A stretch of 64,000 nt of DNA from positions 36,351 to 100,350 of IMG/VR virus record IMGVR_UViG_3300020478_001903. The stretch is one strand, 5' to 3'. How positions within the stretch are numbered: position 1 is the first letter of the stretch; every line of letters starts with the position of its first letter. The position numbers and the translations under genes are program-made. The notes beneath the pieces are model-generated. The model was given only the letters and a program-made list of their open reading frames with translations, was not told the DNA's origin and did not search any database. Shown here one piece after another: positions 17,430 to 51,850 of this stretch. The DNA comes from a virus.

Positions 17430-17430
17430 T

Positions 17431-18842: not shown

Positions 18843-18851
18843 AATCTACCT

Positions 18852-20518: not shown

Positions 20519-20519
20519 C

Positions 20520-30303: not shown

Positions 30304-30304
30304 T

Positions 30305-31570
30305 TTAAAACTCTAGGACAGCATCCCCGTCTACAGGAGGCGCCGACACGCCTCCACACGCTTCCAGTACCGAATCGGCAAACTGTTTGTACATCTTCTC
30401 GGGAGTAAATTTATCGAGCACATGCTTTTGAAGTGCCTGCGCTTCGTTTCGGTAATGGCCCTGCTTATCAATTGCTTCACGCAAAGCGCGCTTATAAGAA
30501 GCCTCCTTAGGATAAGCCCACTGGGAGCCCTCCACGAGCATTTGCGGCACGCGGGCATATGGCTGAATCTCAGCCAGTTCGTAGTCAACCTTAATAACCC
30601 TAGGAACATCCTTGCCCTTCTTGTTGGGCTTGCAAATAAAGTCCATCTGGCCGCTCCATGTTACAGTAAGAAGAGGGAGACCATTACAGGCTGCCTCGAA
30701 GAGGGGGAGACCCCAGCCTTCTCCATGGCCGATGTTCACTAAGGCCTGCATTGTGGGGTGCAAATATAACCACGATAGATGATTCGGAGTCAGTTCCCCG
30801 TGCAAAAAATACACCTTACACTTACGATCGGGAATATCTAAACTATTCAGCACATGGTTGATGCGATGTGTAGTAAATTCTCGATCCATAATGCTATCTG
30901 CGGCAGTATTTGTCTTCAGTACTAAGCCGACATCTTCATCATCCTTAAATGTTTCCACAAACCATTTAAGAGTGTTTTCTACGTTTTTTCTGGGCGCCCA
31001 TTGAGACATTACTAAAAAGTTTTTAGAGGTTGTAAACTCAACATCCAGTGGCTCAGGAGGCACGACTCCTCGAACGCAGTAGTTCACTACGTCGATAGGG
31101 ACCTTTACGCTCCAGTCATCAAGAACTTCTCCGGTCTCTTCATTCGTCGCCTGATAAACGGTATTTTCAAATACTGACTTGGCATGATTAGAGACGACAA
31201 TGACCCGCTCCATTGTCTCGTTCACTTTTCCGATCCACTCCGGGGCAACTTTCGTCGTTTCTATCCCGGCGGTGTACCCAATATTTACGGGGGTGATTCG
31301 TTCGAACTGATTCGGGACTGTAATTTGGAGCGATGCGTCAAACTGGCCGCCGGCTTGCATGAAGTGGTGGGTTTTTTGAAGCAGAAACTCAATCTCCGCT
31401 CTTTCGGGGGAACTCTCGGCGATGTTTTTCGTGGAGCCCCATGAAGTATTAATGACATAAACATCAAACAAATCCCGATGAGACTGCATCGCTCTAAGAG
31501 CGAAGCGTGACTGTTCGCCATAGCCAGATCGAGAGAGAAGGGGCCCTCTCATTAAAAGTTTTTTCTGCAT
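30305..31570 (-). CDS. Glycosyltransferase family 4-like (GT-B)
   Basis: A 421-residue GT-B protein. It opens with GPLLSRSGYGEQSRFALRAM (acceptor-side Gly-rich loop), then NFLVMSQWAPRKNVENTLKWF at the start of the C-domain and NIGHGEGWGLPLFEAACNGLPLL, the E-x7-E donor motif. The VEGSQWAYPKEA region ends the domain. Likely attaches a hexose in building the same glycan as the adjacent transferase, which lies 1 nt upstream in the operon. Confidence 0.88.
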   Translation of the reverse strand: MQKKLLMRGPLLSRSGYGEQSRFALRAMQSHRDLFDVYVINTSWGSTKNIAESSPERAEIEFLLQKTHHFMQAGGQFDASLQITVPNQFERITPVNIGYTAGIETTKVAPEWIGKVNETMERVIVVSNHAKSVFENTVYQATNEETGEVLDDWSVKVPIDVVNYCVRGVVPPEPLDVEFTTSKNFLVMSQWAPRKNVENTLKWFVETFKDDEDVGLVLKTNTAADSIMDREFTTHRINHVLNSLDIPDRKCKVYFLHGELTPNHLSWLYLHPTMQALVNIGHGEGWGLPLFEAACNGLPLLTVTWSGQMDFICKPNKKGKDVPRVIKVDYELAEIQPYARVPQMLVEGSQWAYPKEASYKRALREAIDKQGHYRNEAQALQKHVLDKFTPEKMYKQFADSVLEACGGVSAPPVDGDAVLEF

Positions 31571-31571
31571 T

Positions 31572-32825
31572 TTAGAGTACCCTCATTTCATATGGTGTAT
31601 ATCCCGTGCGGTTATCCCATGATCCGCAATCTTCATTCAATTGCGTAAAAAGATCATCCCAAGATTGCACGAAGTCGTCAAAGTTAAACTGCTTTAAAGT
31701 CCACTCACGAGCCTTAGCTCCCAGTTCAGTGCGTTCTTCGGCTGTCATATTGTATACCTTAAGCAGCGCATTTACAAAGTCTTCCTTTGAGATTCGATCT
31801 TCATAAATATAAGGAACAGACTGAGATCCAATGATAGATTTTGAGGTCGGTTCAATACCAACTCCAAAGCACGTTTCGCCATCCGAGATCTGGTCTTTAA
31901 GACCTCCGGTCAGTGTCACTATGATAGGCGTCCCGCAAGATAGGGACTCCAACGTAGAAAGGCCGAAGCCTTCTGCATCAGATATATTTACAGTACAGTC
32001 GGCGACGTTATAAATCCCGGCCAGGTCGCGAGAATCCACCTTTTCACGTGAGAAAAGCACCTCTCCTGAGGTGAGTCCCAGTTCGTGAATAATGGCTTCC
32101 AGGTCTTGACCATGAACATCCTTAACATCTGTGTGCATGATCAAGGTTGCCTTATCATGGCCCACTTGGTCCAAGAATTCTTTAAACCACCAAATCAAAG
32201 TACCAGACTGCTTTCGTCTTGCGTTTCTATTATTCCAGAAACAGACAAACTTATCTGTCAGGCCTTTCTGGTGACGATACTGTGCAATTTCGCCCGGAGG
32301 CATTGGCTTAAAGATGTCACCGTCCACAGCATGTGGAATATAACTGCTTGGTGTCTCGGGCGCAACTGTTTGAAGAATATCGTGAGTTAGCCGCGAGATG
32401 CAAGCCACATGATCATTTGAAAGATAAAAGGGTCGATTAAATTTAGGATGAGGATAGTTGTCCCATACGTGATAATACACCATCGGCACATGGGGTCGAA
32501 TCTCATGCTCGATCTCCCAAAGCCACCCATAAAAACGAGGGTCGGTCATAAACCACAAAATATCAGGCTTTTGCTGATATATCATAGCTCTCACCATTTC
32601 TTGTGTACCATAGCCATCCACGGGCCAAATGATCCAGTCTTCTCCCCACTGCTCTGTATGTTGGGGGTCGTGACGGGGGTGTTTTATAGCCCCCCCAAAA
32701 GAGACAAACTGATATTTACCGGTTTTAAGCATCCCTTCGATAATATACTTTGTCTGAGTTCCAACCCCAGAGGGGGAAAGTGGATGATCTCCGATAGTAA
32801 AAATCTTAATTTTATTATTAGACAT
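31572..32825 (-). CDS. Glycosyltransferase family 4-like (GT-B)
   Basis: A 417-residue GT-B enzyme. Signals are FTIGDHPLSPSGVGTQTKYIIEGML (acceptor loop), KFVCFWNNRNARRKQSGTLIWWF (C-domain start) and NISDAEGFGLSTLESLSCGTPIIV (E-x7-E motif with both Glu). It is the first gene of the glycan cluster in transcription order. The layout is shared with the 30305 gene, and they may be old paralogs. Confidence 0.88.
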   Translation of the reverse strand: MSNNKIKIFTIGDHPLSPSGVGTQTKYIIEGMLKTGKYQFVSFGGAIKHPRHDPQHTEQWGEDWIIWPVDGYGTQEMVRAMIYQQKPDILWFMTDPRFYGWLWEIEHEIRPHVPMVYYHVWDNYPHPKFNRPFYLSNDHVACISRLTHDILQTVAPETPSSYIPHAVDGDIFKPMPPGEIAQYRHQKGLTDKFVCFWNNRNARRKQSGTLIWWFKEFLDQVGHDKATLIMHTDVKDVHGQDLEAIIHELGLTSGEVLFSREKVDSRDLAGIYNVADCTVNISDAEGFGLSTLESLSCGTPIIVTLTGGLKDQISDGETCFGVGIEPTSKSIIGSQSVPYIYEDRISKEDFVNALLKVYNMTAEERTELGAKAREWTLKQFNFDDFVQSWDDLFTQLNEDCGSWDNRTGYTPYEMRVL

Positions 32826-37925: not shown

Positions 37926-38148
37926 TTGTTTCCTTCCATAGATAAGTTGCTGTCATGGGCCAGTAGATCTCTTCACCACTGTCCACTACTTGTATTCTAT
38001 AGACTGTAATAGATTTGTCAAGTACTAATCCAATAAATTTTCGATTATGCCCGTGCTCATTCACGCGCGCTGAATCAACACAAATGACCAAATCGCCTAT
38101 GGTCGCTTGTTTTCGAGGCCGCTCTTGTCCCAACCACCCTGTGTCCAT
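37915..38148 (-). CDS. Small SH3-like 'GDLV' protein
   Basis: A 77-residue protein. The core IGDLVICVDSARVNE, FIGLVLDKSITVYRIQVV and a final EEIYWPMTATYLW form the short beta-barrel pattern (GDLV...G(I/L)V...V.W) also seen at 58625 and in the right-end cluster. The first 15 residues lie inside the end of the metallopeptidase gene (52-nt overlap), so the true start may be further downstream; no better ATG exists. Confidence 0.6.
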   Translation of the reverse strand: MDTGWLGQERPRKQATIGDLVICVDSARVNEHGHNRKFIGLVLDKSITVYRIQVVDSGEEIYWPMTATYLWKETNEY

Positions 38149-38693
38149 TTCTCATTCATTAAATGATTAAGTTTATTAAAATGCAAAAATCCCAAAGCAT
38201 GACCTATCTCATGTTCCAAGACTGTATCTCTAACCTCGGGCTTCATGTATATGATTGCCCACTCAATTTCATTATGGTCATTATCTACATAAAAGTGAGT
38301 TTCAGCTAAATCTTCCTCATCCATTCGAATATCTTGATGGACCAGGCGTACTACAATATATCCCACCGGTGTCTTGCTTTTACACTTGTCTAAAGGATCA
38401 TATTTATATTGAGTAGTAAAAAACCTATAGTTTAAATCTTTCCAAAAGCGTACAGCATTTTTTACACGCTCTTCACTAACCGGGGCATAATCACAAACAA
38501 TTACCGTTGGAGTTCTTTTCCACGTGGCTACTTGAGGTGGGCGATCTTGAATCGCTGGAATTCGTTCGAAATTTGAGACATAATCACTAGCAGTTGCAGT
38601 TACAGCACCAAGGACCATTAAACTTGATAAAGCCAATATAAGGGCCCCATAATAAAAAAATGAAACCAGTTTTGCTTGGGATTTCGTTTTCAT
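38097..38693 (-). CDS. Secreted matrixin/metzincin-like zinc metallopeptidase
   Basis: A 198-residue protein. An N-terminal hydrophobic segment (FFYYGALILALSSLMVLGA, residues 12-30) with an ATA-S cut site near 35 looks like a signal peptide. The metzincin motif HEIGHALGFLH is complete at 161-171, with a Met-turn Met at 179 (HLMNEKW). It is a small matrixin-type domain without a propeptide Cys switch that I can see. Export to the periplasm or outside suggests action on host surface or extracellular proteins. Confidence 0.85.
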   Translation of the reverse strand: MKTKSQAKLVSFFYYGALILALSSLMVLGAVTATASDYVSNFERIPAIQDRPPQVATWKRTPTVIVCDYAPVSEERVKNAVRFWKDLNYRFFTTQYKYDPLDKCKSKTPVGYIVVRLVHQDIRMDEEDLAETHFYVDNDHNEIEWAIIYMKPEVRDTVLEHEIGHALGFLHFNKLNHLMNEKWTQGGWDKSGLENKRP

Positions 38694-39281: not shown

Positions 39282-39593
39282 TGGTGGAGGTGGCGGGGCT
39301 CGAACCCGCGTCCAAAGCAGTTACTACTTCAAGTCATTCACAAGTTTAGTCAGTTTTTCTAAACAGACAAAATAGTCAATTTATTTCGATCCGCTGTATT
39401 GACAAAAGCGTACTCACTTGTTATGCTCTTCTTGAACACCTGGCGAAGAGCAACCAGGGATTAAGCAGCTAAGGCTAAATCGTAATCTGCGTCATTGGCA
39501 GTTAAGTGTTCCGGAAAAAGATTAACGTGATAATTCCAGCTTGCACGACTTGCACTATCCATCTTCCCTACTCTGTCGATACCATTCACCCCC
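39282..39593 (-). ncRNA. ssrA: Phage-encoded tmRNA (ssrA), one-piece form
   Basis: A complete 312-nt gene. The 5' end GGGGGUG (39587-39593) pairs with CACCUCC just before the encoded 3' ACCA (7 bp, one G-U), making the alanine-tRNA-like acceptor stem. The T arm is seen as GGACGCGGGUUCGAGCCCCGCC. The tag reading frame lies inside. The size is close to the shortest one-piece tmRNAs (bacterial ones are about 350-400 nt). It would rescue stalled ribosomes and tag proteins for ClpXP-type proteolysis, using host SmpB, since no smpB gene is in the window. Confidence 0.93.
39461..39499 (-). other. tmRNA tag-peptide frame (ANDADYDLALAA)
   Basis: Read on the minus strand from the GCC resume codon at 39497-39499, the frame gives ANDADYDLALAA followed by TAA at 39461-39463. 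The ALAA end is the ClpXP degradation signal; the AND start is the common proteobacterial one. The two extra residues and the acidic DADYD middle differ from the E. coli tag (ANDENYALAA), so the gene is not a recent copy of an enterobacterial ssrA. Confidence 0.9.
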
Positions 39594-40865: not shown

Positions 40866-43019
40866 CTAGCCCACCGTTATACCTAGTAAATAGTCAACTA
40901 CTTCGTTAACTAGCTCATCTTCTTCTTGGAGCGGTTTTTTCTTACGACGTCTCTTTTTCTTTTCAGAACCAGTAACTTCGGGCGCCCTTCCTGAATATCC
41001 CCATCCGGTTCCGCCCATTCCCGCAGCTGTGGAGAATTCATTGATATTCATAGCGCTTGGTAATATTGATTTTACATCATCCACATCAACGTTTTCAGGT
41101 AAATGTAAACTTAATAGTTCATCGTTGTTTTCGCGTGCAGCTTTTCGCATCACAGATGCGCTTAAGTCAATCCCGTCAGCGCTTTCTACCGGGCAAGGAT
41201 CCAGCACTCCCACTTTTACATTAAGAGGGTTCTTGTCGGGATTATTGGCAAACCAGTTTGCAAAATCCACAGCCCGCTGTGCGTCGGAGGGGCCCTTGGC
41301 GCCTACTTTCTGGCTACACCCCAGCACAAAGACGGCATCATCGCTGAATTGTGAGACAAACTCTTTATTTCCTAGCAACTCGAACGCGGCCCTCATCGGC
41401 TGGTTATGTTCGACGAAACGAATCTTAGGATCAAGACCTCCATACAGGTCAAATAATCGTTGAGACATCTCTTGCGTGACTCCCTCACGTGCCTTAGGAC
41501 CGTTCAGTACCACAACGTTTTCCACATCTGGGTTATCTGCATAATAGTTGAGCATCGCATAGTGACCTTTATGAGGGGGCTTAAAGCCTCCAGGTATAAG
41601 AACCACGTGTCCGCTTTGTTGTTCGTTAAGAGCCCAATTTACAGCCTCTGCTAAAGCAATTTTCACGCTAGCTGCATTTTTAATAAGAGAAGTAACTGGT
41701 ACGCCGGCGCGCAAGCTTTCGTACAACATATGATTTTTGTTTGTCGTTGCGGGAAGATTTTTTGACCACTCCAGAAGTGATTTAGTCACCGAAAAACCAT
41801 CCATGCCCCAATATACTGTGAGGCTTTCGGCTTGTTGAAACTTTGAGCCCTTATCAACAGCGAAGTTTGCCTTGCTAAACTCTAGGCGATCAACAAATTT
41901 TACACCATTTCCAGCGTGGTCAACAGCCACATACCCCTCAGGATTGCTGGCCACTAAGTCACCAGATCCATCATCGATAAAGTGCTTTGTATTATAAACA
42001 GCATTGTTATATTTGCTGATAAAGATATTCTTGGCCTCGAACAAGAGCCGCGAGACTTCAAAGAGACTTAAAATATCTGGTCTTTTTTCATCAAAAGCCC
42101 GGACCATTTCTTCCCCTTTTTGGGTAGCTCTCATTCTGCCCTTTTCGGACTTTAAAGAATCAATCCTTTTTTCAAGCCGCGTAAGATACCAGGTTTTAAA
42201 GCCCTCAAAGGACTGTTCTGGATTTTCCAAAAACTTGCCACCCTTAATCTCACTATTGATATAAATGTTGAGAAGATCCATCGGCAGATCATCATAGTTA
42301 ATTTTTTCATTTACTCCATCGGCCGCCGCAACCAGTTCCTTTACTTTCGCTTCTTCAGCAACTGTAAGGGTAACAGTACCGGTATCATCGGTGAAAAAGG
42401 CGTCATCGAACCAGACTCCAGGTACCTGATTCAGGCCACTAACATCGGCGCCGAACGAGGCTCCGCTGTCTAAGCCATCATAAGTGGTATGAAAAACAAT
42501 ACCAAATTTTGATTCACCAACTTCTTTGCCCAACTTAGAGTCCACCGGCACAGCATATGTAATTGTGTTTGGCTTAAACGTATAATGTGGCTCTCCATCA
42601 AGTTCGACCACATTTAACATTTCATCATCAAACATAAAGTCGCCTTGAAGAATTTTTTCAATCCCCAAAGAGGGCAAAAACCTTAATGCTTTAGTTAGCT
42701 TATCAACCAAACCCGGCGCGTGTCCATGATTTCTCTGAACATCTTCGGGACTATAGTTTATTTTGGGAATCTTGTTAAAGATGGATTTAGTTCCAACGAA
42801 GAATTTCCCATTTTCAGGGTTGACCCCTGCAAAGATAGCAGGCGCCCCGTCCCACTTAACAGAGGTTTGAACTTTTGATTTAGAGTTTCCTTTAAGTTCT
42901 TCTAGTAACTCTAGCAAAAAAGCCCTAGCCATTCCATAGCCCTTAGGACCTTGCGTTAAAACAAGCTCTTCAAGGTGTGTAAGATGGGTATTCGCCTTTC
43001 CCTCGTTCAAAAGAGACAT
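40866..43019 (-). CDS. Ligase-like and nucleotidyltransferase fusion protein (717 aa) with capsid-targeting-like leader
   Basis: A 717-residue protein. It opens MSLLNEGKAN, so a (L)xE cut after Glu6 is possible. Residues 55-60 read KWDGAP, a KxDG motif of the covalent nucleotidyltransferase (ligase/capping) superfamily; GKFFVGTKSIF, ILQGDFMF and a later GVKFVDRLEF fit further motifs. From about residue 470, PGGFKPPHKGHYAML is a cytidylyltransferase HxGH motif. Related two-part proteins occur in T4-like marine phages without known function. It could seal or repair RNA or NAD; activity is unproven. Confidence 0.75.
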   Translation of the reverse strand: MSLLNEGKANTHLTHLEELVLTQGPKGYGMARAFLLELLEELKGNSKSKVQTSVKWDGAPAIFAGVNPENGKFFVGTKSIFNKIPKINYSPEDVQRNHGHAPGLVDKLTKALRFLPSLGIEKILQGDFMFDDEMLNVVELDGEPHYTFKPNTITYAVPVDSKLGKEVGESKFGIVFHTTYDGLDSGASFGADVSGLNQVPGVWFDDAFFTDDTGTVTLTVAEEAKVKELVAAADGVNEKINYDDLPMDLLNIYINSEIKGGKFLENPEQSFEGFKTWYLTRLEKRIDSLKSEKGRMRATQKGEEMVRAFDEKRPDILSLFEVSRLLFEAKNIFISKYNNAVYNTKHFIDDGSGDLVASNPEGYVAVDHAGNGVKFVDRLEFSKANFAVDKGSKFQQAESLTVYWGMDGFSVTKSLLEWSKNLPATTNKNHMLYESLRAGVPVTSLIKNAASVKIALAEAVNWALNEQQSGHVVLIPGGFKPPHKGHYAMLNYYADNPDVENVVVLNGPKAREGVTQEMSQRLFDLYGGLDPKIRFVEHNQPMRAAFELLGNKEFVSQFSDDAVFVLGCSQKVGAKGPSDAQRAVDFANWFANNPDKNPLNVKVGVLDPCPVESADGIDLSASVMRKAARENNDELLSLHLPENVDVDDVKSILPSAMNINEFSTAAGMGGTGWGYSGRAPEVTGSEKKKRRRKKKPLQEEDELVNEVVDYLLGITVG

Positions 43020-43026
43020 GGGATGA

Positions 43027-43275
43027 TTATTCCTTCTTAGATTCTTCTAGAATTTGGACCTGTTCCTCAAGCAGAGTGACCCGCTCTCGAAGGCGTCTAG
43101 TTTGTCTTCGAACTTCTGTCAGATTAGCTGTTGCAACTTCAATCCGGCGCTCGTCTCTCCTAGAACGAGGGACGATAGATTGTAAAACTTCGCCGATAGA
43201 TTGAATATAACTATCTAAACTTGGTTTTTTACTTTCACCCAGCATGAACTCGCGAGTGAGTCGCCGGAAGTCCAT
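43027..43275 (-). CDS. Coiled-coil protein with capsid-targeting-like leader
   Basis: An 82-residue protein opening MDFRRLTREFMLGESKK, with an LGE cut site after residue 14. Residues ~30-82 are a coiled coil (RRDERRIEVATANLTEVRRQ then LRERVTLLEEQVQILEESK). After cleavage a ~68-residue coiled-coil rod would remain. It lies between the large ligase-like gene and the Ala-rich gene. Confidence 0.65.
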   Translation of the reverse strand: MDFRRLTREFMLGESKKPSLDSYIQSIGEVLQSIVPRSRRDERRIEVATANLTEVRRQTRRLRERVTLLEEQVQILEESKKE

Positions 43276-43279
43276 TAGC

Positions 43280-43480
43280 TTACTTATCCGAAGCTGCAGA
43301 TTTACGACTTGACTTTTTCGCCTTGCGTGCGGCCTTTTCTGCCGCGGCAGCTCGTGCAGCCTCTAACGCTTGCGCTTCCGCAGCTTCTGCGGCTTGCGCT
43401 GCTTGTGCAGCCCCCGCCTCAGCTGCCGCTGCTTCATCAATCGCCGCTTGGCGACGTCTTTTAATCCATGGTGCAACCAT
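43280..43480 (-). CDS. Ala-rich basic helical protein
   Basis: A 66-residue protein, about half Ala with Glu/Lys/Arg: MVAPWIKRRRQAAIDEAAAAE then a long Ala-rich helix and a basic SRKSAASDK end. An IDE cut site at residues 14-16 follows a basic leader. The histone-like composition suggests DNA contact; ejected DNA-binding internal proteins of T4 (IPI-III) are similarly small and basic. It abuts the metallopeptidase gene (1-nt gap). Confidence 0.6.
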   Translation of the reverse strand: MVAPWIKRRRQAAIDEAAAAEAGAAQAAQAAEAAEAQALEAARAAAAEKAARKAKKSSRKSAASDK

Positions 43481-43481
43481 T

Positions 43482-44693
43482 TTACTTGGCCTCCTTTTTA
43501 ATTCTCTCTACAATCCGGCGCGTGATTTCTTTCGCTTCCCGAACTGAGATTTTGCGTGGAAGTTGTTGAGTTTCTCCCAGTTTAGCTTGGGCCGCCTCTC
43601 TTACCTTGACAGGTCGAACCTTTGTAGTTGTCCTCGATAGATCTCTGCCTGAAACGCGTACTCCCACCGGCGGCGGCGCATCTTCTGCGGCATCCTCTCC
43701 AGCCTCTTCACCAGCAAGTTCCCAATCAGCCTTCTTGATGGCCTCAGCCTCGCCGGTATCATCGTCATCATCGCGCCAGCCCCAACCTTCTTCGATTTCC
43801 CCTCTACGTCGTTTCGCCGCCAGAAACTTCTTTGCCGCAGCGATTTCTTCGGGGGTGCTTGGTTCGTAAGCTTTATCTCCCAATTCTAGGCCTCCAGTAC
43901 TCGGAGCAACCGTATGACCTTTGACGCTACTGTGGTGTCGTGGTCTTGTGGCCGTTCCCCCTTGGGCGATACGTTCCCAGGACCTCTTAGTTTCTTCCAG
44001 ATCTTCGGCTTCTTGTCCTTCCCTGAAGTGGGTTCCTTCCTCGCCGTAGTCATAGGTTTCTTCACCCTCAGTCTTCTCATTAAGCTTTTCCTCTTCCGAC
44101 TCCTGCTGCAGTTCGACACATTCGCCATCCTGCCACTCAAATCCTTCTTTGCATTCGCTGCCCTTGTCTTCCTTAAGAAGTCCCCACTTTTTCATCAAGA
44201 GCGTATTCAGCTCATTATTTTTCCACTCGTTTAGTGACATGTTTGGTTCTCCTGAATCCGAGAAATCAATCTCGATGTTAATTTTTCCTGTCTTAATTAG
44301 GTCCTCAAAGTCTCTAAAGATTAAATTACCTTTAGTATATGCTTCGCGCTCCATTTTACGCATGTGAGGATCCGTTTGTGCATAGCCCGGACCGGTCTCC
44401 TTATCTCCTAGGTCACCGCGACAATTTTGAGCATGATGAACAAGCTCATGCGACAAGGACCGTAGGATATCTTTAGGATGGCGCCCATCAACGTATAACA
44501 CAATCTCTAGAGCCACAGGATCATAAAACGCTGTTTTTCCAAGCATTTTTGTAGCATTTTGCTCATCGCTTTGAAAAATAATAGATATGGGTTTATTAAA
44601 TTGGAGAGCTTTTTGTGAATAAGGGAAAAAATTATCCACCATTTGCTCCAAATGGCCCAGGTCTCCGTGAGATTTATTTATACACTTATGCAT
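43482..44693 (-). CDS. HExxH zinc metallopeptidase with low-complexity tail (403 aa)
   Basis: A 403-residue protein. Residues 82-86 are HELVH in the context LRSLSHELVHHAQN, with a likely third ligand Glu at 115 or 117 (KMEREAYTK). Residues ~165-330 are acidic low complexity (EEEKLNEKTEGEE) and the C-terminal ~70 residues are basic, ending REAKEITRRIVERIKKEAK. The acidic part holds several xLxE sites (LKE, LNE), so the chain may be cut by the prohead protease. The C-terminal helix looks like the leader of its neighbours but placed at the end. Confidence 0.78.
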   Translation of the reverse strand: MHKCINKSHGDLGHLEQMVDNFFPYSQKALQFNKPISIIFQSDEQNATKMLGKTAFYDPVALEIVLYVDGRHPKDILRSLSHELVHHAQNCRGDLGDKETGPGYAQTDPHMRKMEREAYTKGNLIFRDFEDLIKTGKINIEIDFSDSGEPNMSLNEWKNNELNTLLMKKWGLLKEDKGSECKEGFEWQDGECVELQQESEEEKLNEKTEGEETYDYGEEGTHFREGQEAEDLEETKRSWERIAQGGTATRPRHHSSVKGHTVAPSTGGLELGDKAYEPSTPEEIAAAKKFLAAKRRRGEIEEGWGWRDDDDDTGEAEAIKKADWELAGEEAGEDAAEDAPPPVGVRVSGRDLSRTTTKVRPVKVREAAQAKLGETQQLPRKISVREAKEITRRIVERIKKEAK

Positions 44694-44702
44694 TATTCTT
44701 AC

Positions 44703-45020
44703 TTAAATAGTTGTAAACAGAAGAAAGAGCAGTCCCCATAGGTGGTAAACAAAAACAGAAATGTAGATGAAGTTGAGTACCAATAAGGCCCTGAAAATAA
44801 CCTTTGTAAATCGCTTGCGAAAAAAATATAAAATCCAAATCCCTGCGGCACTGAGCCCTAACTTGGCCAAGACAAAAAGAAGGGGACTTACGTCCAAGAA
44901 AAACGCCATAATCGGGTTGGCTTCTTGGCCCAAGTCGTAAGCAACCCAACATATAGTAGCGGTAAGATCAATAAGAATAAAGATTGCCAGGATATATGCT
45001 AACCGGACAATTTTCTTCAT
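44703..45020 (-). CDS. DUF5658-like small membrane protein
   Basis: A 105-residue protein with three transmembrane helices (LAYILAIFILIDLTATICWVAY; SPLLFVLAKLGLSAAGIWILYF; LLVLNFIYISVFVYHLWGLLFLL). The D-x-x-x-T...W-x-x...EANPIMAFF loop matches DUF5658. It lies inside the run of leader-bearing genes, but has no such leader. It could be a membrane pore or a linker in injection. The role is unknown. Confidence 0.75.
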   Translation of the reverse strand: MKKIVRLAYILAIFILIDLTATICWVAYDLGQEANPIMAFFLDVSPLLFVLAKLGLSAAGIWILYFFRKRFTKVIFRALLVLNFIYISVFVYHLWGLLFLLFTTI

Positions 45021-45037
45021 TCATTAATCTCCTTGTT

Positions 45038-45343
45038 CTACCGTCGCGAGTTATCCATTTCTACAGCCTTGAAAATTTCTTCAAACTCTTTAGCAAGTCG
45101 ATTAATTGCGGCTACTGTTTTATCTTCCAGCTGATCTTTGGAAGTATCATGTTTTCCGGCAGTTACTATTTGAAATAGAGTTTCTGCTTGCCGCGATAAA
45201 TGATGTAAAGCCTGTGCAGTAAGATCGACAGGTTCTTCATATTCTGAGTCGTCTTCCCGATAGGGCATTTCCAACAGAACAGAACGTGAATTCTTGATTT
45301 CTTCGTTGATGAGGTCTTTAAGGCTTTGTCGAGTAATCTTCAT
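45038..45343 (-). CDS. Helical protein with capsid-targeting-like leader (101 aa)
   Basis: A 101-residue protein opening MKITRQSLKDLINEEIKNS: a basic amphipathic helix with an INE cut site after residue 14. The rest is acidic and helical (LTAQALHHLSRQAETLFQIV, ending FEEIFKAVEMDNSRR). No known domain. It lies 3 nt before the 45347 gene with which it is likely co-translated. Confidence 0.65.
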   Translation of the reverse strand: MKITRQSLKDLINEEIKNSRSVLLEMPYREDDSEYEEPVDLTAQALHHLSRQAETLFQIVTAGKHDTSKDQLEDKTVAAINRLAKEFEEIFKAVEMDNSRR

Positions 45344-45346
45344 TAT

Positions 45347-46186
45347 TTAACCCTTCTTCTTTTTCTCTAAGTTGCGCACGATTGTATTGGCTATAGCTTT
45401 ATCGCTAGGGACATTTAGCTTTCCAAATATAGAAGCTAGCGCATCTCGCAACTTAAGTGGTTGAACTCCCGGCGCGCCTAGTACGGTGAGCAATTGTTGT
45501 TCAATAGCCTCGGGAGTTTGAATCTCTGAGCTTGTCCCGGCCACCGCAATTCGTTTGGCGCGTGTGGATGCAGGATCCTGTTCTTCTGACACTTGCATGC
45601 TCATTGCATCCAACACGATTTCTTTATCGTCGCCGTCTAATGCCGCCATGGCTTGAAGAGCCTTTTGAACCTCCGCTACGTTTTTTACGCCGCGTGCTTT
45701 AAGTGCTGCATCGTCTGGAATACCTTCTTGAAACATTCCCACTGCATCGCCCATGGGCATTGCAAAGCCACCCATGCCACCGGTATAATTACCCGCCGCA
45801 GCACCGGCCGCATTATACTGCTGTTGGTCACGAGGAGGTGCCACAACGCGTTGGTCCGGCATTGGATGGGCGCCCATGTCGATAATACCATTCAAAACAT
45901 TTCGCATGCATGCTGATGCTTTAAATGCATCTTCATAGATTTCATCGTAAACCGGGTCATCCAGCTCTACGATGAGTTTTTCAACGGCCTCACGAGCAGC
46001 TAGCGCAACCTCATAAAGTGCGTTGGCCTCGGGATCTCCCATATCCTGTTCTTTGTCCGAGGTATCGGCCGCGGGCATTCGATGAGGAACCCCTGCAGGC
46101 GCCGACGGTACCATCATTCCTCCGGGTCCATCATGTGCGAGAGCGCCTTCGACAAAAAGTTTAAGTTGTTTGTAATCTATAGTCAT
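45347..46186 (-). CDS. Hypothetical protein with capsid-targeting-like leader (279 aa)
   Basis: A 279-residue protein from ATG at 46184-46186, which lies 2 nt past the upstream stop; the ribosome site AGGAAAAGG is in the upstream gene. It opens MTIDYKQLKLFVEGALAHDG with an FVE cut site after residue 13. Middle: a Gly/Ala/Met-rich stretch (GAAAGNYTGGMGGFAMPMG). The C-terminal part is helical (PLKLRDALASIFGKLN). No known domain. Confidence 0.65.
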   Translation of the reverse strand: MTIDYKQLKLFVEGALAHDGPGGMMVPSAPAGVPHRMPAADTSDKEQDMGDPEANALYEVALAAREAVEKLIVELDDPVYDEIYEDAFKASACMRNVLNGIIDMGAHPMPDQRVVAPPRDQQQYNAAGAAAGNYTGGMGGFAMPMGDAVGMFQEGIPDDAALKARGVKNVAEVQKALQAMAALDGDDKEIVLDAMSMQVSEEQDPASTRAKRIAVAGTSSEIQTPEAIEQQLLTVLGAPGVQPLKLRDALASIFGKLNVPSDKAIANTIVRNLEKKKKG

Positions 46187-46187
46187 T

Positions 46188-47222
46188 TTAGCCTTTTCCT
46201 GGTTTAGCTGAGGCGGGAGTTGTTTCAATCCCCGGAAACTTCTTCTTTACAGCGCTATGCACTCTTTTAACTAGGCTTTCTAGGCTTCCATCATACCAAC
46301 TCGGGGCCGAGGAATACTGATTGGCGCGTGAAAGGGCGTTTCTTCCGTGTGATTCATCAGGGATGGGAAATTTCCGTTCTTTCGGAAAGATAAAACTACT
46401 AGACGACATATCTTTTCGCTCCTTAGAAGAGAGTTTTTTCTCATCTAGTTGAGTTTCTTCCATCATCTCGTCCAACAAAGCGGACATGTCGAGATCAAAC
46501 ATTTCTTCTGCTTCTTCATTGGTCAAGACAACTTCAACCTCTTCTTTAATAATTCGATAAATATCAGCTACTTTAATTTTCATTTCTTCTAGTTCCTCTT
46601 CTGCGGGCTTTTCTCTTTGCCCAATTTTACTCTTTAAACTTAGCTTCCAATTCTCCCAATCTTGAAAATGCGCGTCTTTGGGAAACCCTTGCTTTTGAAG
46701 CGAATGCAAAACAAACCGAGATAGGCCATAATCATCAATCCATGTGAAGATGGGAGCTATCCACTCCCACATAACAGAAGCATCTACAGGGCTGGCGACA
46801 TATAAGGCTGCCGTCAAAACCTTTAGCTTTAAATCAAGCGGCATTTTTGTCGACTTGTCTTTATCAATGGCAGCAAAATATGCGGCCGCAAGTTCGTCCC
46901 CGGCCGGAATGCCAGCCGTAATCGCACCGACGCCTGCACGGGCTCGTGCTGCTCCTCTGCTACCTTCGGGGGGAAGCTCACTTCCAGGCCCACTACGCCA
47001 TTGCGACAAGAGGGGATCCTCTTCTTCGGTAAGCTGGCGCTTCATCAAAGCATGCAAGAGTTTATCGTTTTCGGAGCCCGGTGTTCCCCCCGCCATTTGG
47101 TTTACAGCTGCTAGAATTTTTTTAGCATGCGGTTTTAGAAGTTTGTCTATTATTTCTGGTTGAGTATCTCGTTCATGAAGAACTGAATAAACTTCTTTTG
47201 CAATAATGTGGGCAAGATTCAT
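46188..47222 (-). CDS. Hypothetical protein with capsid-targeting-like leader (344 aa)
   Basis: A 344-residue protein, MNLAHIIAKEVYSVLHERDTQ opening with an LHE cut site after residue 17. Three helical blocks: residues 20-60, a central DLKLKVLTAALYVASPVDASVMWEWIAP with hydrophobic helices, and an acidic EEEVEVVLTNEEAEEMF. The end is basic and Ser-rich (VHSAVKKKFPGIETTPASAKPGKG). No enzyme motif was found. Another internal site (EETQLDE) may be cut. Confidence 0.62.
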   Translation of the reverse strand: MNLAHIIAKEVYSVLHERDTQPEIIDKLLKPHAKKILAAVNQMAGGTPGSENDKLLHALMKRQLTEEEDPLLSQWRSGPGSELPPEGSRGAARARAGVGAITAGIPAGDELAAAYFAAIDKDKSTKMPLDLKLKVLTAALYVASPVDASVMWEWIAPIFTWIDDYGLSRFVLHSLQKQGFPKDAHFQDWENWKLSLKSKIGQREKPAEEELEEMKIKVADIYRIIKEEVEVVLTNEEAEEMFDLDMSALLDEMMEETQLDEKKLSSKERKDMSSSSFIFPKERKFPIPDESHGRNALSRANQYSSAPSWYDGSLESLVKRVHSAVKKKFPGIETTPASAKPGKG

Positions 47223-47270
47223 ATGACGCGACTCCAGAGTCTTTTTAATTAGTTCTTTATCGAGTGTTTC

Positions 47271-48194
47271 TCAATTTTCTTCTGGCGTTATATAGACAGG
47301 CACTTGGCGTAATCCAAGTTTTTTGGCAGCCTCTAAACGATGGTGACCATTCATTACATGGTAAAAAGGCTCAGGAACACCCGATTTTGGCGCGCGCCCA
47401 ACTTTTTCTGCCTGCGTTCTGTAAGTTTTAACTGGTTTTTGATTGCACACTTCTATGGGTTTAAACTCGCCCTTCTTGATATCTATCATTTTTCTTTTTA
47501 TGATGTTATCACATTCCGAACTCGGGCAATTGTGATCTTTGCCGTGCCCCAACTCTTCTGTGGGCAAGACATTATCTATGTTTACATACAAGACCTTCTT
47601 GCTTTCCGATAAATCTTCTGAATTCTTTTCGGCACTTAAACAGTTAATCCACTTATTTCGTAAGAGTTCAGTCTCTTCACCGGGCACTGGGACATGCTCC
47701 CCTGCGATCCCAGAACCTTCAAGAGCCGCAAGCTCTTCTAGGTCGTCATCCCAATGTTTGGTGACTCCAAGCTTTTTTAGCATCTCTACTTTAAAATCTC
47801 CGCTCGTGTATTCAACGATCTCTATAGGCAGATCTAGTGCGGCAATAAGCTCTTCTGGTGTGGGAGCGTCATCCCATGGTTTTTTAGGACCTTCAAGTTT
47901 GCACCGCGATGTAACGATTACAACCTGGTGGCCTTCATCTGCCAATTGACGCACAATGTTGATGTATTTTTCATGTGGTCCAAGATACTCCACATCTCCA
48001 TCTTCTAAAGTTTTATACCGGATAAGCGTGTTGTCAAAGTCAAACGAATAAGTGTTTTGTTCTAGGTTGTCTTCGTCTTCCACGACGATCGTACGTTTTT
48101 TATACCATGGTGAGTCATCCGGGGGTACTCCCTCTCCAAATCCTCGTCCTTCGTTAAGGAACCTCCGCCATTCTTTTAATATTTCTTTCATCAT
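47271..48194 (-). CDS. HAD-like and ParB-like domain fusion with capsid-targeting-like leader
   Basis: A 307-residue protein opening MMKEILKEWRRFLNEGRGFG; the FLNE-G site follows residue 15. Residues ~48-160 are a HAD domain: SFDFDNTLIRY (motif I), VIVTSRCK (motif II) and HWDDDLEE (motif IV). Residues ~205-300 resemble a ParB/sulfiredoxin-type domain: GEFKPIEV then PFYHVMNGHHRLEAAKKLGLRQVPVYI, in which GHHR takes the place of the (G/D)(G/N)H(H/R)R nucleotide motif. A phosphatase or nucleotide-acting protein is expected. An extended sigma-70 promoter lies just upstream. Confidence 0.75.
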   Translation of the reverse strand: MMKEILKEWRRFLNEGRGFGEGVPPDDSPWYKKRTIVVEDEDNLEQNTYSFDFDNTLIRYKTLEDGDVEYLGPHEKYINIVRQLADEGHQVVIVTSRCKLEGPKKPWDDAPTPEELIAALDLPIEIVEYTSGDFKVEMLKKLGVTKHWDDDLEELAALEGSGIAGEHVPVPGEETELLRNKWINCLSAEKNSEDLSESKKVLYVNIDNVLPTEELGHGKDHNCPSSECDNIIKRKMIDIKKGEFKPIEVCNQKPVKTYRTQAEKVGRAPKSGVPEPFYHVMNGHHRLEAAKKLGLRQVPVYITPEEN

Positions 48195-48221
48195 TATAAA
48201 TATACCTTTTCATTCATTTAT

Positions 48222-48249
48222 AGTATAGCAGCCCCGAAAATGATGTCAA
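48222..48249 (-). promoter_or_regulatory. Sigma-70 promoter with extended -10 before the HAD-ParB gene
   Basis: On the minus strand: TTGACA at 48244-48249, 16-bp spacer and TATACT at 48222-48227, preceded by TGC (extended -10). The -35 overlaps the stop of the small gene at 48246. Transcription would start about 20 nt before the 47271-48194 start codon, giving a host-polymerase entry point inside the leader-gene run. Confidence 0.7.
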
Positions 48250-48464
48250 GGATTATTTTTGTTGCGATGGACCATTCGCTCCAATAGTGGTAGTTTGCTG
48301 GACACTGCGGTAGTAAACATAAATGGCATAAAAGAGTGAACAAGACACTTAAGTGTCAAAATCTTAAACATGTACACCAACTTCCATGCAGCGAACATAT
48401 GCTCAAAATAGCCTTCATTTTGGTCATCCAGGTGCTTCCGCCAATTTTCAAGCAGTAGTTTCAT
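48246..48464 (-). CDS. Small protein with LLLENWRK capsid-targeting-like leader (72 aa)
   Basis: A 72-residue protein opening MKLLLENWRKHLDDQNEGYF. The leader matches those of the 48464 and 49108 genes nearly exactly. The remaining part is hydrophobic and may cross or bind membranes (MFAAWKLVYMFKILTLKCLV, then LVHSFMPFMFTTAV). TAATG overlap with the upstream gene. It could be a short ejected membrane-active protein. Confidence 0.65.
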   Translation of the reverse strand: MKLLLENWRKHLDDQNEGYFEHMFAAWKLVYMFKILTLKCLVHSFMPFMFTTAVSSKLPLLERMVHRNKNNP

Positions 48465-49108
48465 TATTTTTGCTGTGCCTTTTGTAAAAACGCTTCATAA
48501 GTCAGAGACCATTCCAAAGGAAGAATGTTTTTCCCATCCTCGGTTTGATCCCATTCGACAGAATAGGCGCTGTCGCCCTGCCCAAAAATGGCGCCCGAAT
48601 CTTTACCAACTAGTTGCTTCTTTAATAAATCGACAGAGTTGGTTTTTACCGCTTCGCGAAAGTTACCGGCGTTCTTATAAGGAGAATTCGGCCCTAAGTC
48701 GGCCGAATCGGGAATATTGCCAGGCTGGACATAAACAAAGCCTGCCTTCACTCCGGCAGGTGCAGGGGTTAGGGGATAATCTTGAATATCTTGCATGGTA
48801 ACATAGGTGCCCGCGGTGGCATCCTGAGTTTGTGCGGCCACGTCTTGGTCGTAGTCTTGCCAAGCTTTTTGGGTCTGCGCGGTGGCGCCAGCAACACCGC
48901 CAGTCGCAACGCTTAAGGCAACAGCAAGGGGAAGTGCTTTTTGTGTGACTTGCTTGCGAACCCAGGCCGCCTTTTTTGGCCCAACGAGATCAACAATTCG
49001 ATCCCACAGCTCGCCCTCAGTAAGTTGTCCGGACTCATAAAGCACACAAATATCCTGTGCTTCGACTAAAAGTTGGTACCTTCTCCAGTTTTCAAGTAGG
49101 AGCTTCAT
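48464..49108 (-). CDS. Hypothetical protein with LLLENWRR capsid-targeting-like leader (214 aa)
   Basis: A 214-residue protein from ATG at 49106-49108 (TAATG overlap with the upstream stop); the longer frame is not needed. It opens MKLLLENWRRYQLLVEAQD with an LVE cut site after residue 16. There is a hydrophobic Ala/Gly-rich segment (ALPLAVALSVATGGVAGATA, ~residues 59-78), like a transmembrane or signal region, and an all-polar C-terminal half. No domain recognised. Confidence 0.65.
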   Translation of the reverse strand: MKLLLENWRRYQLLVEAQDICVLYESGQLTEGELWDRIVDLVGPKKAAWVRKQVTQKALPLAVALSVATGGVAGATAQTQKAWQDYDQDVAAQTQDATAGTYVTMQDIQDYPLTPAPAGVKAGFVYVQPGNIPDSADLGPNSPYKNAGNFREAVKTNSVDLLKKQLVGKDSGAIFGQGDSAYSVEWDQTEDGKNILPLEWSLTYEAFLQKAQQK

Positions 49109-50538
49109 TAAACGTTCCACCCATGTAAATAATTGGTCCATTTTTCCCAGATTGCTTGCATTACTGGCTGCAGTTCGCTTGTGTTATATCCACGCTCTAT
49201 CGCATCGTTAAATATGAGATTAATTTTATTCGCCACAATCCGTTCGATATCTCCCCCAGTCCGTCGGGCCCTTCCGCGAGCACCAGCAAGATGTCCCCGA
49301 GTTTCTGCCTCGGATGCAAAGTGTTTATAAATGTTCTCTAGACTATCCCACTTTTCTTCACCCTCGGGAATATCACCTGTCAGCATATCTGTAGGATCAC
49401 AGCTATGTTGTAGTTCGTGTGATAGGGCATCTTCCAACTCCTCTGTCAACCACTCTTCAAATGTCTCTATCTCCTCATATCCGCGCGGAATATTGAGGGT
49501 GATCACTAGGTTTGATTGTGACCGATCTTCAGGGACGCAAAGGTAAAAGGCCTTAATGCTGGCCTCGCCACGATCGTTTATCGCCACGCCCAGATGGACT
49601 TCATTAATTGTTTCATAGTTCGCGAAAAGGGCGCCTGTGTCCAATATAGTGATTGCTTCACCACCGGCCGTTTGTTGGTTTAAGTGCTCAATGGATTCCG
49701 GGCGCAAAAGAAGAGAAGATATCATCTGATTCAGCTCTTCGCTAAACTTGATGAGATCGGGCTCAGTATCGGCAGCCTCACTGATACCTTCTTTTAAATC
49801 ATCGTCCTCGTCCCATTTTGAACTGAACACGGATGAATCGATAATCTTGAAGTTATAATCGTCGTCATGACCAATGTTGGAGCGGTTGATCTCATATTTG
49901 TCGATTTCGAATTCATGCATTGCCTTGCTGAGTTCTTGGTACGCTGCGCCCGCAACAGGAGCAATTATTTTTTGAAGTTCTAGGGCCTTTCTGTCTGCAT
50001 CGCTGGGGTCGTCAGATACATTGCCGAGCGCAATCTCGCGATCGGCACGAAAAGAGTCCATGAGGCGCCCCATAATGTGAAAGGGATCTGCCGGATTAAA
50101 CTGCTCCCCCAGCTCATCTGCGACTTTTAATAAAGCCTCCTGCTCTTTGGGGAAAGATTGATCCAAAACTTTCTGCATTTGACTTGGCCAGCTGATTGGG
50201 CGAGTCTTTTCCATTACAATCCAAGAAAAATCATCCGCATGTGCATATGCTTTGGGAAAGATGAATGGGTAACGCTTTGCTGTCTCAAAGTCGTCCTTGT
50301 TCATCTGCATTTTATAGTCGTCAGAGTCATGAATAACTTTGATGACATATTCAGGGTCTCCAACGGGCTTGTACACGCTGCGAAAAGAGCCCCTTCCGAT
50401 CCTTATGAAACGATCAGATTCTACGATGGCTTGGATTTCTTTTAAATCATCCGTCGCTTGGATTTCTTTGAGCCACGGGAAATGCTGGGCTTCGCCTTCT
50501 GTGAGATACTTCCGCCAGTTTTCAAGTAGGAGTTTCAC
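49088..50538 (-). repeat. Repeated leader-coding DNA (three copies)
   Basis: Three genes begin with almost the same DNA. The copies start at 48464, 49108 and 50538 on the minus strand. The block CTCCTACTTGAAAACTGG is identical in the last two, and the first differs at a few third positions. Together they encode MKLLLENWR(K/R). The downstream sequences are unrelated, so the short segment has moved between genes. Confidence 0.8.
49108..50538 (-). CDS. Protein-kinase-like and HExxH metallopeptidase fusion with capsid-targeting-like leader (476 aa)
   Basis: A 476-residue protein from a GTG at 50536-50538. The leader MKLLLENWRKYLTEGEA has an LTE cut site after residue 14. Residues ~45-240 look like a protein-kinase fold: glycine loop IGRGSFRSVYK (47-57), Lys67 in YVIKVI, an INRSNIG catalytic-loop-like stretch (N221) and KIIDSS with D234 for the DFG Asp. 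In the HRDxxxxN register the Asp reads Glu216, so activity is uncertain. Residues ~370-410 hold HELQH (374-378) and Glu410 (ASEAE), a zinc peptidase site. Confidence 0.75.
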   Translation of the reverse strand: MKLLLENWRKYLTEGEAQHFPWLKEIQATDDLKEIQAIVESDRFIRIGRGSFRSVYKPVGDPEYVIKVIHDSDDYKMQMNKDDFETAKRYPFIFPKAYAHADDFSWIVMEKTRPISWPSQMQKVLDQSFPKEQEALLKVADELGEQFNPADPFHIMGRLMDSFRADREIALGNVSDDPSDADRKALELQKIIAPVAGAAYQELSKAMHEFEIDKYEINRSNIGHDDDYNFKIIDSSVFSSKWDEDDDLKEGISEAADTEPDLIKFSEELNQMISSLLLRPESIEHLNQQTAGGEAITILDTGALFANYETINEVHLGVAINDRGEASIKAFYLCVPEDRSQSNLVITLNIPRGYEEIETFEEWLTEELEDALSHELQHSCDPTDMLTGDIPEGEEKWDSLENIYKHFASEAETRGHLAGARGRARRTGGDIERIVANKINLIFNDAIERGYNTSELQPVMQAIWEKWTNYLHGWNV

Positions 50539-51172
50539 AAAGAAGCTCCAAATCAGAATTAAAAGCTGCCTCTATTTCAGCTAACCCGCCAAACTCTTCC
50601 CAGTCGCCCCAGTAGGCGGCGGGTTTTAAGGTATCCTTGTGATAGGCCACAAATTTCTTTACCATTTCGGCCACATCTTGAAGATCTCCGAACAATTCTT
50701 TAATAGCCTCTGCTACTTGGCCCCCTCGAAGCATTGTGAGAATCTGTTGAATTTTTTCTATTATCTCCGGGGTCTTTGCCACCTTATCTAGAACATAGCC
50801 ACCAGTTAGCTTAAACAATGCTGTTAATATCATTACGCCAAGCTCTATGTGTTTGCGCGTCATTAAAAGTCTTACGGCAGCGATTTCATTGCGAACCTGG
50901 TGTTTCCCAATTAGCCTCTTTTGTCGAAGCTTATTAAACAAATCAACCAACTTAGTGCCTAATGATTTAACGAACTTTTGGGCGTATTCAATTCCCTTAT
51001 CTTTCATCTGGGTCATTTTGGCTTTGGTATAATCCCAAAGATCCCCTAAGCCTTCATGAAGGTCTTCATTTAAGAAGTCCAAAATCTCTTGTTCACTAAT
51101 CGTAATGGTTGCAGGATCGTTATAGGCTTCTGTAAGAAACTGATCCCACTTAATGGAAGTGAAATTTGACAT
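50522..51172 (-). CDS. Helical protein with capsid-targeting-like leader (216 aa)
   Basis: A 216-residue protein opening MSNFTSIKWDQFLTEAYND; the FLTE-A site follows residue 15, and further LNE and LHE sites follow at ~37 and ~41. The rest is helical: IEYAQKFVKSLGTKLVDLF, MTRKHIELGVMILTALFKLT (hydrophobic) and IEKIQQILTMLRGGQVAEAI. It starts the leader-gene run. A CTATTTATAG element lies directly upstream of the ATG. Function unknown. Confidence 0.67.
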   Translation of the reverse strand: MSNFTSIKWDQFLTEAYNDPATITISEQEILDFLNEDLHEGLGDLWDYTKAKMTQMKDKGIEYAQKFVKSLGTKLVDLFNKLRQKRLIGKHQVRNEIAAVRLLMTRKHIELGVMILTALFKLTGGYVLDKVAKTPEIIEKIQQILTMLRGGQVAEAIKELFGDLQDVAEMVKKFVAYHKDTLKPAAYWGDWEEFGGLAEIEAAFNSDLELLCETPT

Positions 51173-51187
51173 ACACTATAAATAGTA

Positions 51188-51850
51188 TTATAGCGTCAAT
51201 AACCAATCAATTGAGTGTAATATCTCAGCAGGATTATATCCTCGATCAATATCGCGCAGAACCATTTCGCCATCAATATAATAAAACGTTGGCCAACCTG
51301 AAAGAGCCCAAGTACCGCCTCCACTTTGCAAAATTGCCCTACTTGCAGCGACCACCGGAGAATCAGTAAGGTTATACTCATTCGCCCAGGCGGCAACATC
51401 TGCTTGCGTTGGGACTGACCCGTTGGCTGTTTCTATCAAGACGGTCACATAGATAAGTCCAGAGTCCCGGTAAAGATCTTGAACTTCTTGCGCATGGGCC
51501 GCCGCGGCTCTACAAGGCCCACACCAGCCCGTAGAGAAGTCTAGAACGATCGGGCGCCCATAGTTTGCATAAAGCCCGAAAGTGTCTCCATTTTGATCAG
51601 GGCCCATGAGATTGCATGGGTGGTCTCCCTCCTCTCCCGAACAAGTATCCCAAGTGATGGGGCTTGGCGGCAGAGTATCCCACGGGTCCACATCGTGGAT
51701 CCCTTCTAATGTGGAAAGAAATAGGTCGTCTTCCACGTCCGCTGGTGAAAGATCCTTTTGATTGTCGTCGAGGTCATCAGAAACTGTGGTTTGAGGCGCT
51801 TGGCAGGCGCCAACTAACAGACAAAATATTACTAAAATCATTCGTAACAT
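51188..51850 (-). CDS. Thioredoxin-like (TlpA/redoxin) lipoprotein
   Basis: A 220-residue protein. Signal and lipobox: MLRMILVIFCLLVGAC with Cys16 lipidated. After an acidic linker there is a redoxin domain with RPIVLDFSTGWCGPCRAAAAHA; the active-site WCGPC is at 109-113. The downstream GWPTFYYIDG carries the cis-Pro (WPT). It would sit on the periplasmic face of a membrane and reduce or shuffle disulfides, for example in a host envelope or phage lysis protein. Three added Cys (CSGEEGDHPC) lie before the domain. Confidence 0.85.
   Translation of the reverse strand: MLRMILVIFCLLVGACQAPQTTVSDDLDDNQKDLSPADVEDDLFLSTLEGIHDVDPWDTLPPSPITWDTCSGEEGDHPCNLMGPDQNGDTFGLYANYGRPIVLDFSTGWCGPCRAAAAHAQEVQDLYRDSGLIYVTVLIETANGSVPTQADVAAWANEYNLTDSPVVAASRAILQSGGGTWALSGWPTFYYIDGEMVLRDIDRGYNPAEILHSIDWLLTL

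Follow-up and report, generated by a model that had tools for sequence, protein, structure and literature searches.

Bacteriophage T4 carries unrelated internal proteins (IPI, IPII, IPIII and Alt) into its head by means of a short N-terminal capsid-targeting sequence ending in (I/L)xE, which is removed by the S77 protease gp21, an enzyme that cuts after L/I-X-E (PMC9026906). In the available part of that paper, IPIII (N-terminus MKTYQEFIAEA) is described as requiring only its first ten residues for incorporation, with positions 4 and 7 governing targeting and positions 8 and 10 governing processing; its leader is reported to be sufficient for packaging, and the protein to be injected. IPI (MKTFKEFTSTTTPVSTITEA) is 95 aa long by its annotated gene and 76 aa in its mature form, as stated in the accessible part of PMC3012670, and is therefore cut after STITE. 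Here we analyse leaders of a comparable kind on a cluster of neighbouring genes at positions 40866–51172 of a 64,000-nucleotide stretch of DNA from a marine virus of bacteria (the window), which corresponds to positions 36351–100350 of the 100,350-bp virus record IMGVR_UViG_3300020478_001903. The genes of the cluster lie on the minus strand and are named below by their first coordinate.

The leaders fall into two classes: class B, MKLL(L/F)ENWRxx(L/I)xE, and class A, MKITxxxLxxIIxEE, which is often followed by a later LxE. We consider it likely that they serve for capsid targeting in the manner of the T4 internal proteins and that their bearers are an arsenal of packaged and probably injected proteins. 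In this virus, each protein would be docked on the scaffold core by its leader as the head assembles; a gp21-type protease would then cleave behind (I/L/V)xE, and the mature protein would stay in the head until it enters the host together with the DNA. A sequence-only reading of the window had proposed such T4-like leaders on a head-packed arsenal, and the protease, the leaders of relatives, the candidate cleavage sites and the virion mass spectrometry (MS) of the cyanophage S-CREM2, all presented below, support it; cleavage, packaging and injection are what we infer from them. Compared with T4 capsid targeting, what is new is the presence of two other leader families, a larger number of tagged genes (9–22 profile-tagged genes per record) and detachable cargo; the cargo is, moreover, enzymatic and fused, and class B is conserved as DNA.

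Other known systems share part of these features. In phiKZ-like heads and SPN3US, a gp21-related protease cleaves many head proteins behind a Glu and proteins are ejected into the host, according to the available part of PMC9026906, whereas the phiKZ-like motif is S/A-X-E. An N-terminal stretch of P1 DarB is sufficient to carry a reporter into the head; that paper finds no N-terminal consensus for the Dar proteins (PMC9024508). The polyvalent proteins of phages and conjugative elements, as described in the available part of PMC5512222, are multi-domain and predicted to be co-injected effectors, but what defines them is the fusion of domains and not a leader.

Class-B leaders were collected with a DNA pattern for MKLL(L/F)ENWR in viral contigs (at least 119 stretches; 196 matches translated, 154 non-redundant), and class-A leaders with the pattern MKITxxxLxxIIxEE (at least 120 stretches; 175 translations). 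The class-B columns outside the search pattern carry 2.89 bits of information at position 11 (Y/F), 2.41 at position 12 (L/I/V) and 2.86 at position 14 (E), and the information falls to 0.77, 0.40 and then about 0.2 bits after Glu14. Among the matches listed, the 154 class-B sequences have E at position 14 in 81% and L/I/V at position 12 in about 91%. The (I/L)xE ending is a feature of class B; it is weaker in class A, which has a second, weaker L-x-E at residues 20–22 (E22 in 38% of 150). Aligned on the Glu, IPIII (MKTYQEFIAE) and class B (MKLLLENWRKYLxE) have aromatic-x-x-aromatic-(I/L)-x-E in common, with W8 and Y/F11 of class B at the targeting positions of IPIII and L/I12 and E14 at its processing positions; W8 is part of the search pattern, and Y/F11, L/I12 and E14 lie outside it. 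Class A looks like an equivalent signal, resembling the N-termini of genes beside the protease. A tblastn search of isolates with leader queries of 20 and 22 residues, which may be below the reach of the program, gave no match. The string MKLLLENW was not found in open-licence PMC papers, and the open-licence PMC literature on capsid targeting and virion proteomes contained no title or abstract opening on these leaders, preprints being outside the scope of both searches. Open reading frames (ORFs) of 11 codons, MKLLLENWRG[ILM] followed by a stop, are found at L118:3537, L162:4780, L176:13104 (counted on the minus strand), L110:2167 and L112:5885 and are, as read from their sequence, class-B leader remnants without cargo.

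A gp21-like protease, which the sequence-only reading had called for together with matching cleavage sites in head proteins and whose absence it had named as grounds for refutation, is encoded in a longer record of the same virus. This record, G001 (165,065 bp; found as L076), spans all 100,350 bp with one mismatch and contains a Peptidase_S77 (PF03420, E 1.7e-32) that is 29% identical to T4 gp21, with aligned GExxHP and SSRG blocks, which we take to be those of the catalytic His and Ser. The window's own record ends within the third gene past the portal, before the protease gene, and for this reason a PF03420 profile search of that record gave no match. In G001 this gene is complete and carries a class-B leader (MSEMKLMMEGWRKYQLLTEAQD..., B profile 5.2 bits); two other genes and then the gp21-type protease follow it. 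Of 12 records tested, 9 gave a Peptidase_S77 match, among them each of the seven with a length of 165 kb or more; the three without a match have 74,015, 97,459 and 84,701 bases. A search for the gp23-type capsid protein succeeded in 8 of 10 records and gave no match in the window's own record and in G007; G001 encodes this protein, with a conserved LxE. Candidate cleavage sites occur in both head proteins in six of six genomes: the major capsid protein (MCP) has a conserved LL(R/K)E before A/S/N, which would be the cut position, and the protease has [LV]LTE near its start. Leader genes are also found next to the protease. Among 80 portal loci fetched, the protease was recognised in 29, and 13 of these have a leader gene (threshold of at least 6 bits) at most 2.5 kb from it; at several of the 13 loci the end of the protease gene and the start of a class-A gene are a few bases apart.

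Virion proteomes of relatives provide a further line of evidence. In the T4-like cyanophage S-CREM2, 52 proteins were detected by MS, including a SAM hydrolase, an APH/ChoK-like kinase and a cytidylyltransferase, enzymes which, in the accessible part of the paper, its authors regard as possibly not separated from the virions (PMC10665884); the words targeting, cleavage, leader, N-terminal and propeptide do not occur in its text. The N-termini of these three proteins are MKDFDSFLEE, (V)KRFDAFLTE and MKNFSSFLTE, and ORF13 (MKDLHSFLTE) and ORF136 (MQTFSMFFSE) were likewise detected. The pattern M[KQRN]x[FYLW]xxF[ILVFM]xE, applied to the whole S-CREM2 genome at any ATG, GTG or TTG, has five matches, all of them starts of detected proteins; five of five leader genes were thus MS-detected versus 52 of 219 genes overall (P 6.5e-4, an optimistic value because the pattern was widened after the N-termini had been seen). 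In S-SCSM1, for which the detection of the NMNAT, not its sequence, was known when the pattern was set (PMC9602691, in the part available), the pattern matches the NMNAT (MKSFLQFLKE, a virion protein), ORF30 (MKTFKQFMSE, unlabelled) and one unannotated 19-codon frame. The leaders of both phages have the T4 form, not that of class A or B, and MS shows presence only. Looser motifs were compared in S-CREM2 over gp1–199 minus gp62 and 17 structural proteins: [ILVF]xE alone occurs in 13 of 26 detected versus 48 of 155 undetected proteins (P 0.049), [FYW][ILVF]xE in 5 versus 4 (P 0.0036), and [YWFLI]xx[FYLI][ILV]xE in 4 versus 7, which is not significant (P 0.055). Compared with proteins of the window, the S-CREM2 cytidylyltransferase matches 40866 with E 5e-4 over 29 residues, and the kinase gives E 0.19 against 49108.

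The cargo of the leaders is highly diverse. In a set made of the pattern-fetched viral contigs (among the matches listed) and seven phage records, 433 mature parts (40 aa or longer) behind A or B group into 245 blastp clusters, 92 of them with class B and three with both. The comparison across relatives that the sequence-only reading had suggested thus shows one short leader on many unrelated mature proteins and a fall in conservation after the Glu. One of the three mixed clusters is a clear A/B exchange, a 2H-phosphoesterase-like protein that appears as ...AVLGE|GGVAYSGVVLDE behind leader A and as ...YTLTE|AIAYSGVVLDE behind leader B, with cargo homology beginning directly after the Glu; the other two are not clear exchanges. 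Cargo with differing leaders or none includes HADs, the ParB-like half of 47271 and DUF6267. At the junctions of fused cargo, [ILVFM]xE lies nearby in 38 of 57 cases versus 15.1 expected for random positions in the same proteins, or 20.6 of 29 versus 8.0 expected when counted by family; 13 over-long ORFs had been removed from a first count (46 of 70 versus 17.3 expected), by a filter that is imperfect. Fused cargo may be cleaved at internal sites as well, and 47271, 49108 and 46188 hold units that occur elsewhere as separate genes. A Pfam search of the 92 class-B representatives, one per cluster, gave 19 families, with protein kinase represented twice and every other family once, so that most of the representatives match nothing; the families include guanylate kinase, zeta toxin, SET, NUDIX, RNase_T exonuclease, tRNA-ligase CPD (2H) and HAD_SAK. 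A PADLOC scan of the same set listed nine PD-T4-6 models, mad6, DEDDh, PDC-S07 and PDC-S48.

Several other explanations of the leaders were weighed. Short (I/L)xE endings could be chance, Glu-rich N-termini in a Glu-rich proteome, and [ILVF]xE does occur in residues 3–22 of 41 of the 165 other genes of the virus, versus 9 of 12 cluster genes (Fisher 7e-4; 48246 enters this count solely via the LLE inside its leader); in residues 7–22 the figures are 38 of 165 and 8 of 12 (P 0.0026). Chance probably accounts for 43280, and perhaps for 40866 and the N-terminus of 46188. The bare motif is common, and more weight attaches to the leader profiles. With a threshold of 8 bits, in seven records, profile B matches 49 of 1447 N-terminal pieces and 0 of 5101 internal ones, and profile A 31 of 1447 and 7 of 5101. 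G000 repeats G001 and was left out of some counts; without it, 45 (B) and 27 (A) of 1339 N-terminal pieces match, and [YW]xx[FY][ILV]xE occurs in the first 30 residues of 42 of 1293 proteins versus 14 of 10,020 internal pieces. Genes tagged at 5 bits or more number 9 in G000, 11 in G001, 13 in G002, 22 in G004, 14 in G005, 13 in G008 and 9 in G009. These profiles, the column information and the class-B DNA pattern in at least 119 contig stretches already contradict chance for classes A and B. In a species-genome collection the same DNA pattern has two exact matches, with about one expected by chance, and both (L405, a Bacteroidetes metagenome-assembled genome, and L406, a Kordiimonadaceae one) soon run into stops, neither leading into a leader gene. 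The leaders are far from what chance would give, and as a general explanation chance is highly improbable.

Alternatively, the class-B leader might act chiefly as DNA, spreading from gene to gene as an anchor for recombination or a signal for translation start, with only an incidental peptide. The first 26 nt of the leader, from the ATG, are indeed conserved as DNA beyond the need of the peptide (ATGAAACTCCTACTTGAAAATTGGCG): codon entropies at Leu3–5 are 1.58, 1.12 and 0.21 bits, compared with 2.03 at Leu12 and 2.17 and 2.33 at two portal leucines, and the 11-codon remnants and one gene with a leader but no site (48246) would suit such an element. It agrees less well with the conservation of positions 11, 12 and 14 outside the search pattern, with the near-baseline codon use of class A at Leu8 (2.09 bits, though some other class-A codons are biased), with the agreement of the peptide pattern with T4 and the protease motif, and with the A/B exchange on homologous cargo. 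We regard it as unlikely; nor is it exclusive of a peptide signal, since the DNA could serve cassette exchange as well, and its conservation would agree with gene conversion or an exchange of cassettes along the leader. Slightly less likely still is that the leaders send proteins to another destination (tail, membrane or host compartment) or label them for a different protease. In the window, leader genes are mostly found away from the head genes, and class A also occurs on contigs of 240–290 kb, but leader genes adjoin gp21 in the 13 loci mentioned, the leader sites agree with the candidate sites in MCP and protease, and the S-CREM2 leader proteins were detected in virions.

The capsid-targeting reading, which we prefer, also has points against it. 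The internal E of the class-B leader (LLE) could be cut too, and 48246 carries a class-B leader but no site. Since class B is conserved as DNA, part of its conservation may not concern the peptide. Sixteen of the 29 protease loci have no nearby leader gene at 6 bits, including that of this virus (5.2 bits). In the proteomes, besides the optimistic P value for S-CREM2, 21 of the 26 detected non-structural proteins among gp1–199 of that phage lack [FYW][ILVF]xE, so that a leader is not required for detection, and in the pattern test on S-SCSM1 only one of the two annotated matches has a virion label.

In uncultured marine phages a function is lacking for many genes, and a readable leader would mark from sequence which proteins enter the host first. 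It would turn a large set of unassigned genes into testable early effectors, among them kinases, a zeta-toxin-like kinase, SET, NUDIX, exonuclease, phosphoesterase and HAD proteins, and would offer a reason for the enzymes in cyanophage virion proteomes such as that of S-CREM2. A wider proposal, which we put forward tentatively and hold at somewhat below even, is that marine T4-like phages use two exchangeable leaders to load 9–22 proteins per genome into the head, that some of these are made as polyproteins which the head protease splits at internal LxE sites, and that the class-B DNA is a seam for the swapping of cargo cassettes between phages.

The sequence-only reading had listed ten leaders in the window. 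All ten ORFs are present, and seven of the leaders (47271, 48464, 49108, 50522, 45038, 45347 and 43027) are backed by a profile or by homologues; that of 46188 stands in half, that of 40866 is ambiguous and that of 43280 is unsupported. The statements on homologues that follow hold among the matches listed (ten each for 40866 and 43027). Three of the backed genes carry class-B leaders. ORF 47271–48194 has the leader MMKEILKEWRRFLNE-G (48150–48194; B profile 9.0 bits), followed by a HAD-like and a ParB-like domain, with PHROG matches to phrog_1238/415 and ParB-like PHROGs; the ParB-like half, preceded by LSE-S in 47271, is found by itself after a leader in L111 and L383. ORF 48464–49108 has MKLLLENWRRYQLLVE-A (49061–49108) and a mature part of no assigned function. 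Its B profile match (27.9 bits) runs from residue 12, which by its homologues is probably the true start of this longest ORF, and residues 12–84 are 85% identical to the copy in L213. It is a homologue of the G001 leader gene between portal and protease, and a 191-bp near repeat (92.7%) links window 48898–49088, within 48464, to G001:C1:54677–54867, within that leader gene near the protease; judged from the alignment, the repeat is a partial duplication of a head-operon gene. ORF 49108–50538, with a GTG start, has MKLLLENWRKYLTE-G (50497–50538; B profile 36.3 bits), a kinase-like domain and a C-terminal HELQH domain. Its two halves correspond to distinct genes with leaders of their own, in L171 and L236, and it has no Pfam match and no match among 50,697 phage records; in view of the missing Pfam match, kinase and peptidase are motif readings. 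An AlphaFold2 model of it (mean pLDDT 54.8, pTM 0.37) was not used as evidence. ORF 48246–48464, which was not in the list, bears a class-B leader (B profile 31.2 bits) without an LxE site at position 14 on a small hydrophobic protein whose listed homologues (e.g. MKNIFTKH...) have no leader.

The remaining backed leaders are of class A or divergent. ORF 50522–51172 starts with the divergent leader MSNFTSIKWDQFLTE-A (51128–51172) on a protein of no assigned function; it has no profile match at 5 bits, and its homologue in L092 starts MKLLMENWRDYQ. ORF 45038–45343 is a small protein with the class-A leader MKITRQSLKDLINE-E, a second site VLLE-M, a weak A profile match (6.2 bits) and a homologue in L171 (MKISKSQLKGLIME). 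ORF 45347–46186, of no assigned function, has the class-A-like leader MTIDYKQLKLFVE (46148–46186); two homologues start at residue 15 with [LV]xE leaders, MTIDYKQLKTLVLQE and MSIDYKQLESMVREA, and residue 15 of the longest ORF is probably its true start. The 82-aa protein of ORF 43027–43275 carries MDFRRLTREFMLGE-S; it has 27 matches in the ORF set, and [ILF]xE is kept at the leader site in ten of the ten listed (e.g. MKIDFRKLTRNFLLGE, MSLNSDWRDFLTE). ORF 46188–47222 combines the N-terminal MNLAHIIAKEVYSVLHE (LHE-R), which no homologue in the ORF set spans, with a class-A unit lying inside the protein, which begins near residue 214 (IIKEEVEVVLTNEE) and comes with DUF6582 (PF20223), and this unit is the N-terminus of separate genes at L171:2163 and L342:2475. 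In ORF 40866–43019 the short, optional leader MSLLNE-G precedes DUF6267 (PF19782, E 1.3e-95; phrog_455, weakly phrog_395) and a weakly cytidylyltransferase-like C-terminus. Of its ten listed homologues, eight begin at the mature block, and a short xE leader is seen in the other two (L171, L175); the DUF6267 protein has an xE leader in HTVC008M and DLP6 and none in S-PM2. ORF 43482–44693 is metallopeptidase-like by a motif reading (HELVH) and contains an internal MSLNEWKNNELN unit; no N-terminal leader was seen, its homologues align from near their start, and it has no Pfam match. ORF 43280–43480 is an Ala/Lys-rich frame of 66 aa (IDE-A) whose sole match in the ORF set is itself.

Matches to the T4-like late promoter TATAAATA number six in the window versus 3.3 expected, a value reached in 13 of 100 shuffles; none was seen placed as the promoter of a leader gene, and the idea was dropped. 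Outside the window, G000:C1:20150–20291 contains two 70-bp direct repeats (98.6%) within a large ORF. Close to the leader cluster, a tmRNA gene with the tag ANDADYDLALAA lies at window 39282–39593 (minus strand), and the cluster is flanked by an HExxH protein (38097–38693, minus) and a thioredoxin-like protein (51188–51850, minus), both with N-termini that appear hydrophobic and signal-like. A long run of genes at 14519–31572 (minus strand) resembles sugar or surface-glycan enzymes; the sole gene of this run searched by tblastn, at 18852–19997, is aminotransferase-like, a first guess at its identity having been wrong.

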